Position numbers and translations under genes: made by a program. A stretch of DNA of 37,372 nt from Gemmatimonadota bacterium (GTDB taxonomy: Bacteria > Gemmatimonadota > Gemmatimonadetes > Gemmatimonadales > Gemmatimonadaceae): the NCBI GenBank assembly GCA_025358315.1, contig JANYKA010000037.1, positions 1 through 37,372 on the forward strand. Reading direction: 5' to 3'. Shown here in pieces: positions 8,795 to 14,532 of the stretch; the stretch's first letter is position 1, and each line of letters opens with the position of its first letter. Under the pieces are notes generated by a model, which was not told the origin of the DNA, ran no database searches, and saw nothing but the letters and a program-made list of their open reading frames with translations.

Positions 8795-8936
8795 AAAATG
8801 GCTTTGCCACGGATTTTCGCGGATTAAATGCGGATTTAAACAGATAAATAGCTGGGGAACAGCCGCTGTCGTTCCCAAAGTCGCAATCCGTAATTATCGC
8901 TTGTTTATCCGTGTAAATCCGTGGCAAAGCCGTTTT
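8795..8936. repeat. palindromic repeat, copy 1 (CGGAT-phased family)
   Basis: A 132-bp core (8800-8931) is bounded by a perfect 17-bp inverted repeat (GGCTTTGCCACGGATTT and its complement), extended by AAAA/TTTT to 8795-8936 across one T-G wobble. Left-arm units: CGGAT at 8810, 8820, 8831 and a variant CAGAT at 8841. Right-arm units mirror them exactly at 8917, 8907, 8896 (variant ATCGC) and 8886. The centre (8865.5) is a GGGAAC (8855-8860) / GTTCCC (8871-8876) hairpin. Seven T residues follow on the minus strand (8798-8792), so it can terminate the ftsB transcript. A second family member is at 14386-14532. Confidence 0.85.
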
Positions 8937-8939
8937 GCT

Positions 8940-9284
8940 TTATGGCCGACGCGCCTTCTTCGCCGTATCCCCAGGCGCCGGCTCGGTAAACCGGTACAAG
9001 AGCTCTTTGTTCCCCTTCACCATTCCAAACTCCTCTCGCGCGATCCGTTCCTGCGTCACCGGATCGCTCTCCACCATCGCCTTGTATTTCTTCAGCGAGT
9101 CCAGTTCGTGCTTGAGCGAATCGAGCTCGTGATGCACACGCGCCAAACGCGTTCGCTGCCGCACAAGATCAAACGTCCCCCATTCCCCGCCCTGCACGGC
9201 GAAATACACCACTCCAATGGCCGCAACCGCGAGCACCGCTCGCGTCGCGATACTTGCCGGTGCAGCGCGCCTCTTACTCGCCAA
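8940..9284 (-). CDS. ftsB: FtsB/DivIC-like septum formation initiator
   Basis: A 114-residue protein from a TTG start at 9284-9282 that overlaps the last codons of eno. No in-frame ATG exists after the eno stop, and the reading frame further upstream is antisense-like sequence inside eno. The layout is a short basic N-terminal segment, one membrane helix ([17 protein letters not shown], about 14-30), then a coiled coil ([33 protein letters not shown], about 38-70 in pieces) and the conserved [21 protein letters not shown], typical of FtsB/DivIC. These bridge FtsL and FtsQ at the division site. Being next to eno is the classical arrangement (eno-ftsB). The start codon is the uncertain part. 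Confidence 0.82.
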
Positions 9285-10560
9285 TCCCGTACACCGCGCC
9301 GCCCGGAAATTCGGCGCTCGAACCCAACTGCGCTTCGATGCGCAGCAACTGATTGTACTTCGCCACCCGATCTGTCCGGCTCGCCGAGCCGGTTTTGATC
9401 TGGCCGGCATTCGTCGCCACCGCCAAATCGGCGATAAAGGTGTCTTCCGTCTCGCCACTGCGATGCGAAATGATGTTCTGATACCCGTTCCGCCGCGCCA
9501 TCTCGATGGTCTCCAGCGTCTCGGTCACCGTGCCAATCTGATTGAGCTTGATGAGAATCGCGTTCGCCACATCTTCATCAATGCCGCGCCCAAGAAATTC
9601 CTGGTTCGTAACAAACAAGTCGTCGCCCACCAGTTGTACACGATCGCCGATCGCCGCGGTCAACGCGGCCCAGCCGGCCCAATCTCCCTCTGCCAAACCA
9701 TCTTCAATCGAGACGATAGGATATTTCGTGATCCATTTTTCAAAGAGTTCGATCATCTGCGCTGCACTCTTCGTGCCGGCACCACTTTTCTTAAACGTGT
9801 ACTGCTTCTTGTTGTAGAGTTCGCTCGCCGCGCAGTCCAGCGCGAGACATATCTGCGTGCCGGGCGCGTAGCCGGCCGTCTCAATGGCTTCCAGAATGAC
9901 GGTGATCGCCTCCTCGTCGCTCTTCAGATCCGGCGCAAAACCGCCCTCGTCGCCGACACCGGTCGCCAGTTTCCGTTTGACCAAAACTTTCTTCAGGGCA
10001 TGGAAAACATCTACGCCCATCCGGAGCGCATCACTAAACGTCTCCGCACCCACCGGCACGATCATAAACTCCTGAAAATCGATCGTATTGGTCGCGTGCG
10101 CACCACCATTAATAATGTTCATCATCGGCACGGGAAGCGTGCGCGCCAACGGTCCGCCAAGGTAACGATAGAGCGGCTGGTTCGCGCTGAATGCACCGGC
10201 ACGCGCCACTGCCATCGATACACCGAGCATGGCATTCGCGCCGAGCTTGGACTTGTTCCTTGTGCCGTCGAGCGCAATCATCGCCCGGTCGATCCCGATC
10301 TGATCTGTCGCATCGGCGCCACGGAGCGCCGGCGCAATGAGCGCTTCGACATTCTTCACCGCTTTGCGCACGCCCTTGCCGCCATATCGCTTGGCGTCAC
10401 CATCACGGAGTTCCAGCGCTTCGTTTTCGCCCGTGCTGGCCCCGCTTGGCACCGACGCGCGTCCGGCCCCGCCGTCGCTCAGCAGGACATCGACTTCGAG
10501 AGTGGGATTGCCGCGCGAGTCCAGAATTTCGCGGGCTTCGATGGCATCAATTGCAGACAT
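9274..10560 (-). CDS. eno: enolase
   Basis: A 428-residue enzyme converting 2-phosphoglycerate to phosphoenolpyruvate. The start is the ATG at 10560 ([20 protein letters not shown]); an upstream in-frame ATG at 10605 only adds 15 unrelated residues. Visible motifs: [11 protein letters not shown] at the N terminus, [10 protein letters not shown] loop, [11 protein letters not shown] with the catalytic Glu, metal ligands in [11 protein letters not shown] and [10 protein letters not shown], catalytic Lys in [13 protein letters not shown], and the C-terminal [17 protein letters not shown] signature. Length and motifs are normal. It follows plsC by 54 bp and overlaps ftsB. Confidence 0.98.
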
Positions 10561-10614
10561 GGCAGTGTGGGATGGCGTGAAAAGTTTCCGACTCGGTCGC
10601 CGCACAAATCCAAT

Positions 10615-13900: not shown

Positions 13901-13922
13901 TAGCGCTCCACTCACGAGCCCG

Positions 13923-14309
13923 CTATGCGGCGGGCGCGACGTTCCACGGGTAGTTCCGGTCGAACGCATCGGAGAACGCGAACACGTCGGCGAAATCTTC
14001 TTTTGTATCTGTGGGCTGGCTCATGAGCAGACCAAGCTCTACAAGCGTAAAAACCACATCGCCGATATGTGCGGTCTGGGTCATACCCCAATGTTCGAGC
14101 ACCATTCGCGCGAGTACACCATACCGTTGGATCGCGAGATCGCGGCACGCCGCAGCGAGCTCACGGCCGGTAATGTGACGACGCTCGGTGAGACGACCTT
14201 GGCAAAACTCGAGTGCCGAGAGCACGAACAGATAGGCGTGCTCGTCGAACCGCGGCTCGCGCAGCTTGATCCGGTCCATCACTCCATCGCGAAACGCCAG
14301 TTCGGCCAC
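13923..14309 (-). CDS. Minf_1886-family conserved protein
   Basis: A 128-residue protein from a GTG start (14309-14307), chosen because AGGAG (CTCCT on the plus strand, 14317-14321) lies 7 nt ahead. An ATG at 14381 also opens the frame but has no ribosome binding site and abuts the palindromic repeat. The body EPRFDEHAYLFVLSALEFCQ, RRHITGRELAAACRDLAIQR, YGVLARMVLEHWGMTQT, GDVVFTLVELGLL and DFADVFAFSDAFD matches the conserved pattern I associate with the Minf_1886 family. Function is unknown; it is predicted cytoplasmic. It is the first gene of the run nnr, thiL, plsC, eno, ftsB. Confidence 0.8.
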   Translation of the reverse strand: MAELAFRDGVMDRIKLREPRFDEHAYLFVLSALEFCQGRLTERRHITGRELAAACRDLAIQRYGVLARMVLEHWGMTQTAHIGDVVFTLVELGLLMSQPTDTKEDFADVFAFSDAFDRNYPWNVAPAA

Positions 14310-14385
14310 TGCGGTGCTCCTGTTATCCGAAAAATGCTGCAGTGCTGGTCGGGCCACAAGCTGTTGTCTTGCGTGGGTCATGGTT

Positions 14386-14532
14386 TTACTGCTTTGCCAC
14401 GGATTTCACGGATCGAAACGGATTGACACGGATTTTTCTTTTGGAAACAACAACGGACATACCCTTAACAATTATTTGGTGTATCCGTGAAAATCACTTT
14501 GTAGATCCGTGAAATCCGTGGCAAAGCAGTAA
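14386..14532. repeat. palindromic repeat, copy 2 (CGGAT-phased family)
   Basis: A 147-bp element whose ends are a perfect 29-bp inverted repeat (14386-14414 with 14504-14532), beginning TTACTGCTTTGCCACGGATT. It shares the core GCTTTGCCACGGATTT with copy 1. Left-arm CGGAT units start at 14400, 14409, 14419 and 14429; right-arm ATCCG units start at 14483, 14493 (decayed to ATCAC), 14505 and 14514. The outer pairs are exactly symmetric about 14459; the inner pairs are shifted by one position, consistent with a small indel. It lies 11 bp past the glyA stop and 76 bp before the Minf_1886 start, so it separates two blocks of the minus-strand genes. There is no strong T-run on either side. Confidence 0.88.

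Follow-up and report, generated by a model that had tools for sequence, protein, structure and literature searches.

Two gene-less palindromes in a 37,372-nucleotide contig of a Gemmatimonadota bacterium (JANYKA010000037.1 of assembly GCA_025358315.1, here called the window) are members of a widespread, dispersed repeat family, and these repeats are linked to the gene of a small nuclease of the GxxExxY family. Arms of the palindrome family bracket the GxxExxY gene of the window genome. The nuclease probably disperses the iteron-ended palindromes, the window copies being gene-less members, in a manner resembling the repetitive extragenic palindromic (REP) doublets and REP-associated tyrosine transposases of other bacteria (REPIN/RAYT). 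The window is contig C208 of a draft genome (G000) of 2.8 Mb and 82.5% completeness; G-numbers denote genomes of a phylum set of 249, C-numbers contigs, and L-numbers extracted loci.

The arms of both copies are iteron arrays, with CACGGAT-like words (CACGGAT, CGCGGAT, and AACGGAT) every ∼10 bp and the other end inverted. Copy 1, identified like copy 2 by sequence, BLASTN, and folding, spans 132 bp (positions 8800 to 8931). Its left arm (8800 to 8836, plus strand) carries CCACGGAT at 8807 to 8814, CGCGGAT at 8818 to 8824, and GCGGAT at 8830 to 8835, and its inverted right arm occupies 8886 to 8931 on the minus strand; the pattern used for the family matches both. An inner inverted pair at 8854 to 8876, GGGGAAC (8854 to 8860) and CGTTCCC (8870 to 8876), is related to the GGGGGAACTGC/GCAGTTCCCCC pair of other copies in the window genome. 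Copy 2 spans 147 bp (14386 to 14532), with words at 14397 to 14404, 14407 to 14413, 14417 to 14423, and 14427 to 14433 of the left arm (14386 to 14433, plus strand) and an inverted right arm, also a pattern match, at 14483 to 14532 (minus strand). The perfect terminal inverted repeat measures 17 bp in copy 1 (GGCTTTGCCACGGATTT) and 29 bp in copy 2. Folding as single-stranded DNA gives z scores of -7.0 for copy 1 and -10.9 for copy 2, equaled by 0 of 200 dinucleotide shuffles in either case. Neither copy is matched by Rfam 15 at the gathering score, where three tRNAs are the sole matches in the window. Copy 1 ends 8 bp from the stop codon of an ftsB-like gene (DivIC; 8940 to 9458, minus strand) and copy 2 ends 11 bp from that of glyA (serine hydroxymethyltransferase [SHMT]; 14544 to 15821, minus strand), both genes being host context outside the elements; copy 2 starts 4 bp from the start of a 152-amino-acid open reading frame (ORF) with no Pfam match. 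The palindromes, their lengths, the 29-bp repeat, and the intergenic positions behind two minus-strand genes had been described in a first-pass annotation of the window and are borne out by sequence and folding.

BLASTN finds the family on 14 contigs of the window genome, the window's own included, a count that leaves out short matches on C273, C264, C83, and C124:15404, which were taken as chance. A three-iteron pattern has 39 matches in this genome with nested matches counted, compared to 0 for the reversed-pattern control. The places are full and half palindromes, many with the inner GGGGGAACTGC...GCAGTTCCCCC pair, and element plus spacer form tandem arrays with a period of 194 bp on C55 (2.9 copies) and 209 bp on C43 (2.6 copies). 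Nested palindromes, with a CACGGAG/CACAGAG element inside a CACGGAA element, are present at L283 and L284 of G049. From two copies, the first-pass annotation had suggested a dispersed family, either a nonautonomous mobile element or a structural or regulatory repeat, and had mentioned similar repeats elsewhere; the genome-wide matches agree with a dispersed, probably nonautonomous family, and arrays in other genomes of the phylum and in other phyla agree with the wider occurrence. It had also considered that only these two copies might exist, at a position conserved in all relatives; the copies are many, and neither site holds the element in any of eight genomes of the same genus.

The window genome has a single PF13366 match, on C99 and adjoining the repeats. 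The protein belongs to GxxExxY (TIGR04256; E value of 3e-35), a PD-(D/E)XK nuclease family. The right arm (TATCCGTGTTGATCCGC...ATCCGTGGCAACGCC) abuts the start of the GxxExxY ORF, and the left arm (GCTTGCCACGGGTTCGCGGGGAT...CCGCGGAT) overlaps its other end and sits between the ORF and cmk. These arms were identified by word and position and read directly; the word CACGGAT and the end sequence are common to them and the window copies. With arms on both sides, the gene thus occupies the position of the center in the short palindromes. Annotated GxxExxY proteins often start inside such repeats.

Bracketing of GxxExxY genes by inverted iteron arms is general and extends over many phyla. Within the phylum set, the gene is present in 76 of 249 genomes, and inverted arms score above all 30 simple shuffles at 16 of 31 loci. 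A scan of named genomes used the best 80 of at least 579 confirmed candidates (∼16 phyla by record titles, with one archaeal locus), of which 75 entered the arm test after 5 were dropped for short flanks; 253 outer-flank pairs served as the control. Arms scoring ≥30 flank 54 of the 75 genes, compared to 2 of 253 control pairs, and arms scoring ≥40 flank 43, compared to none. By title, the 54 armed loci come from 12 phyla (Chloroflexota, Acidobacteriota, Planctomycetota, Bacteroidota, Pseudomonadota, Verrucomicrobiota, Cyanobacteriota, Armatimonadota, Sumerlaeota, Myxococcota, and KSB1, with one Methanophagales archaeon), plus one "delta proteobacterium." Of 150 flanks, 119 have at least two iterated words pointing inward and 32 have them pointing outward. 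The arm word is element specific: it varies by locus (CACAGAG, CGCAGAG, CACGGAG, CGCAAAG, CACAAAG, CGCCAAG, CACAGAT, and others), and the two arms of one locus agree, with an overlap of 0.63 compared to 0.157 for mispaired arms (0 of 2,000 permutations; 52 of 75 loci usable). At L265 (G169:C34:15194-15573), a tandem array of four matches in 118-bp steps directly adjoins a GxxExxY gene.

Dispersed arrays and the gene also occur together. Of the 249 phylum genomes, 42 contain a CACRGA array pattern, whose reversed control gives 12 matches (10 in a single genome); the gene is present in 31 of these 42, compared to 45 of the 207 others (Fisher P of 2e-10). Gene arms can themselves match this pattern; the comparison was therefore repeated for genomes with ≥10 matches only, where the gene occurs in 16 of 23, compared to 60 of 226 (P of 6e-5). 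For the window's own CACGGAT pattern, present in 17 of 249 genomes, the values are 12 of 17 and 64 of 232 (P of 5e-4). The word of gene-less copies tends to be that of the gene arms in the same genome: in 14 genomes with readable gene arms and dispersed copies among the matches listed, places near the gene being removed, the two words agree at 0.656, compared to 0.245 (0 of 5,000 permutations as high). The script could not read the degenerate arms of the window genome, which therefore lies outside this test. Gene arms and copies share CACGGAG in G065 and CACGGAT in G115, a genome of the same genus as G065.

Related species differ in whether a given element site is filled or empty. The tRNA-ftsB neighborhood of copy 1 is present in all eight same-genus genomes, and the element is at that site in none. 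At glyA, no BLAST match of copy 2 is found in the same eight; the seven regions inspected (all but G236) comprise four short gaps, two regions with other genes, and, in G169, another palindrome. That palindrome (GGTCATTGG...CCAATGACC) and the GGCAGA-type words at the ftsB site of the same genome (loci L093 and L260) look as if sites had been reused. Within another genus, G115 and G031 can be aligned with a 20-kb block of G065 that contains eight elements. Where three of the G065 elements lie, the matching blocks of G115 are ∼40 to 55 bp apart; at the G065 gene, which a full palindrome flanks on either side, the separation is 145 bp in G115 compared to 864 bp in G065. The G115 block showed no array of either word type. 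Three of the G065 element sites, judged by alignment position, also hold elements in G031; their inner scaffold is similar, but their outer word is TCACAGAGACACAGAG, as it is beside the G031 gene in that block. This change of word at orthologous sites fits concerted change or reinsertion. A 6.8-kb segment of the block is inverted in G031 (L204 compared to L211); both breakpoints fall in gaps that hold elements in G065, and the G031 junctions now hold no element.

Conservation within the elements bears on whether they act as nucleic acid hairpins or as protein-binding sites. Regulatory or structural RNA or DNA hairpins (terminator-, attenuator-, or REP/BIME-like, the latter denoting bacterial interspersed mosaic elements), kept behind genes for host benefit, would account for the strong hairpin potential and for positions just behind ftsB and glyA. 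They would also suit an ORF survey in which divergent gaps make up 1 of 25 classified element sites compared to 8 of 39 background gaps, a survey made with a crude ORF caller that misjudged the copy 1 distances and left 2 of 27 sites unclassified; as a sign that elements prefer sites behind stop codons, the difference is not decisive. In contrast, RNAalifold on 27 aligned copies of G065 (of 28) assigns only -0.14 of -82.3 kcal/mol to covariation, with kept two-sided change in 3 of 47 pairs; iteron columns are invariant or nearly so, and linkers vary. Similarity between the two arms of a copy does not exceed that between arms of separate copies (47 of 50 copies from G065 and G031), and element positions differ between species. 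Arm-to-arm coupling is absent in G031 (z of -0.07) and negative in G065 (z of -3.1), the latter assumed to reflect asymmetric inner halves in mixed orientation. Maintenance of the palindrome by base pairing or by arm-to-arm conversion was rejected on the absent or negative coupling and negligible covariation. The outer words are spaced almost uniformly within G065 and within G031, but differently in the two genomes. The pattern of conserved iterons, rather than conserved pairing, fits protein-binding sites better than RNA hairpins, and we regard the hairpin explanation as improbable.

The explanation favored here, dispersal by the GxxExxY nuclease, distinguishes gene-carrying members, with the gene between the same kind of arms, from gene-less members. 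Acting in cis on its own element and in trans on gene-less copies, the nuclease would recognize the iterons of both arms and cut at these or at a target; repair of the break would then copy the element. The outcome would be dispersal within chromosomes as for REPIN/RAYT, but with an enzyme of another class and no target duplication. Each GxxExxY gene is flanked by the likely substrate of its protein, which makes the question directly testable.

Several results weigh against this explanation. The arm test is not passed by 15 of 31 phylum loci, including the window genome's own, whose degenerate arms score 19 compared to 25 for shuffles in a generic inverted-repeat test, and 21 of the 75 loci from named genomes stay below a score of 30. 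Of the 42 pattern-positive genomes, 11 have no GxxExxY match by TIGR04256 or PF13366, among them G049 with 118 pattern matches; a divergent protein missed by TIGR04256 was considered for these and rejected, PF13366 matching in 0 of 11. In the window's own genus, G027 has five CACGGAT matches, one copy with the GGGGGAACTGC core, and no gene; the reverse holds in G173 and G236 (gene present, no CACGGAT match). Gene-arm and dispersed words are unmatched in G080 (0.0) and G055 (0.2), the correlation of protein with word is weak (r of 0.14; 9 of 2,000 permutations as high), and the co-occurrence and word-match statistics count genomes without correction for relatedness. Exact insertion boundaries cannot be fixed in the strongly diverged intergenic DNA of relatives, and no transposition event was seen. 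A scan of the related family in G065 and G031 (47 copies, with 3 of 50 dropped by length) detects no target-site duplication; of the thousands of combinations of offset and length, the best shows an excess of 5 compared to an expected 1.6. The first-pass annotation had likewise noted no duplication at the two window copies and had counted this against recent transposition, an argument that loses its force where filled and empty sites occur without such duplications.

These points leave some room for a different relationship, in which GxxExxY lives on or polices the repeats by binding or cutting their iterons, so as to home into, regulate, or limit the palindromes, and replication slippage, recombination, or an unseen transposase spreads them. 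Repeats without the gene (the 11 genomes and G027) would then be expected, tandem arrays with 194- and 209-bp periods and nested palindromes can arise by recombination, and genes of another family, PF05635, also lie in iteron arms, which may host different passengers. However, the agreement between gene-arm and dispersed words is most simply explained by the protein acting on the copies, and the same holds for the word change shared between orthologous sites of G031 and its gene. This alternative appears unlikely, if the most serious of those considered.

All 30 phylum sequences of the protein carry the catalytic residues D77, E87, and K89 as well as Q101 and Y105. A further set of 77 sequences keeps D and K throughout and E, Q, and Y at ≥90%. 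These residues form the PD-(D/E)XK (D...ExK) and QxxxY motifs. An AlphaFold2 model on the 77 sequences has a pLDDT of 96.4, and its best Foldseek matches are LHK-Exo, SSO0001 (a Cas4), and lambda exonuclease, with E values of 0.017 to 0.036, probabilities of 0.90 to 0.99, and none at an E value of 0.001. PADLOC gives weak Cas4 matches (E value of 0.006 at best), and a search of solved structures with the GxxExxY sequence gives no match. The model is thus closest to lambda exonuclease and Cas4, and a RecB/Cas4-like fold is predicted. GxxExxY shares with those enzymes the D...ExK and QxxxY motifs and the weak Cas4 profile matches, and possibly the fold; it differs in consisting of one domain, of about 116 residues, with repeats on either side. 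At an E value of ≤1e-8, one query, which may miss distant members, finds GxxExxY in 8 of 72,556 plasmid records and 0 of 50,697 phage records. The family being rare on plasmids and not found in phages, dispersal seems mainly chromosomal, and spread on phages or plasmids looks minor.

Among known systems, REPIN/RAYT (TnpA-REP), with the composite REPtrons and TIRtrons, comes closest. Two papers on these systems describe intergenic, many-copy palindromes with dispersed gene-less copies, a single gene flanked by the same repeats, a repeat type matched to its own gene, and mainly chromosomal occurrence (PMC3733652 and PMC3116915). The window family has dispersed gene-less palindromes, one repeat-flanked gene, the word match, and mainly chromosomal occurrence in common with these. 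It differs in its window-type units of 130 to 160 bp with iteron arms, compared to 20 to 40 bp for REPs, which are tagged GTAG or CGTC, and in its gene, which encodes a PD-(D/E)XK nuclease. The REP-type transposase family Y1_Tnp (PF01797) has no match in the window genome at its 82.5% completeness, and a RAYT/REP identity of the window family was rejected on this result. The first-pass annotation had compared the repeats with REP/BIME without naming a candidate enzyme; the gene that accompanies the arms encodes a GxxExxY nuclease. A classical miniature inverted-repeat transposable element (MITE) resembles the window copies in being gene-less and intergenic, with terminal inverted repeats (17 and 29 bp perfect) and filled and empty sites; the iteron elements differ in the missing target duplication and in ends made of iterated words. 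No insertion sequence with these ends was found in a search covering Y1_Tnp and not DDE transposases.

A further candidate is a MITE or REP whose mover, a known transposase (DDE or Y1/RAYT), escaped detection in an incomplete draft genome. Of 10 genomes searched, G031 and G048 have Y1_Tnp, and TIRYT elements with long flanking inverted repeats have been described (PMC3733652). Against this, Y1_Tnp was not found in the other eight genomes, which include the element-rich G065, G004, G025, G196, G080, G228, and G049; no target duplication is seen, and the gene between the arms is a nuclease, DDE transposases lying outside the search. Movement by such a transposase is thus very improbable, and nuclease-driven dispersal is preferred. 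Its mode of working seems, by analogy, most like that of REPIN/RAYT, and a cautious reader could class the system as a variant of that kind. To our knowledge, the combination of enzyme class and end architecture matches no known mobile-element family.

A wider proposal, to which we give slightly less than even chances, holds that GxxExxY proteins are the mobility enzymes of a new class of elements, with one gene or none, that end in inverted arrays of an element-specific word, that protein and word change together, and that four-helix-bundle PF05635 proteins serve a parallel class built in the same way. If so, the two classes would explain a large share of the CACAGAG/CACGGAT-type intergenic repeats in many phyla. 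GxxExxY proteins occur in bacteria and archaea and have no assigned role; the present link ties an orphan nuclease family of many phyla to an intergenic repeat class of many phyla. If the nuclease moves the repeats, the mobility system would be built on a minimal RecB/Cas4-type fold, with a bearing on the origin of Cas4-like enzymes. In the open-access literature, which leaves most subscription papers and bioRxiv outside, no description of a repeat-nuclease system was found, nor an explanation of either the nuclease family or the repeat class. The passages on GxxExxY in open-access papers do not discuss repeats, the longer repeat words have no match there, and the short-word matches listed looked unrelated (primers and the like).

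Genes of the 23S intervening sequence protein (IVP) family PF05635, a four-helix bundle, show the corresponding arrangement with other words. They lie in inverted arms at 9 of 12 loci, compared to 1 of 32 control pairs. Nine loci of relatives outside rRNA (L075, L076, and L078 to L084) have inverted arms of iterated words such as TGGCTATT and GGACGGAA. In the window genome, three of four PF05635 genes have long inverted arms, with scores of 142 to 159 obtained without controls; the loci outside rRNA are L288, L289, and L290 on C88, C163, and C184. Of the 11 pattern-positive genomes without GxxExxY, 8 have PF05635 genes, a count that has no background rate for comparison. The 23S intervening sequence with its S23/IVP gene resembles the GxxExxY elements as a single small gene between inverted arms and differs in protein fold; the window family is intergenic and multicopy. 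The intervening sequence in the Coxiella 23S rRNA gene carries an S23 gene and is termed selfish in its description (PMC4990558); by analogy, it may be an rRNA-resident form of the PF05635 class. In G166 (L282, C1:2500383-2500923), a PF05635 gene has CACGGAT arrays on both sides, but these point outward, opposite to the arrangement around GxxExxY genes.

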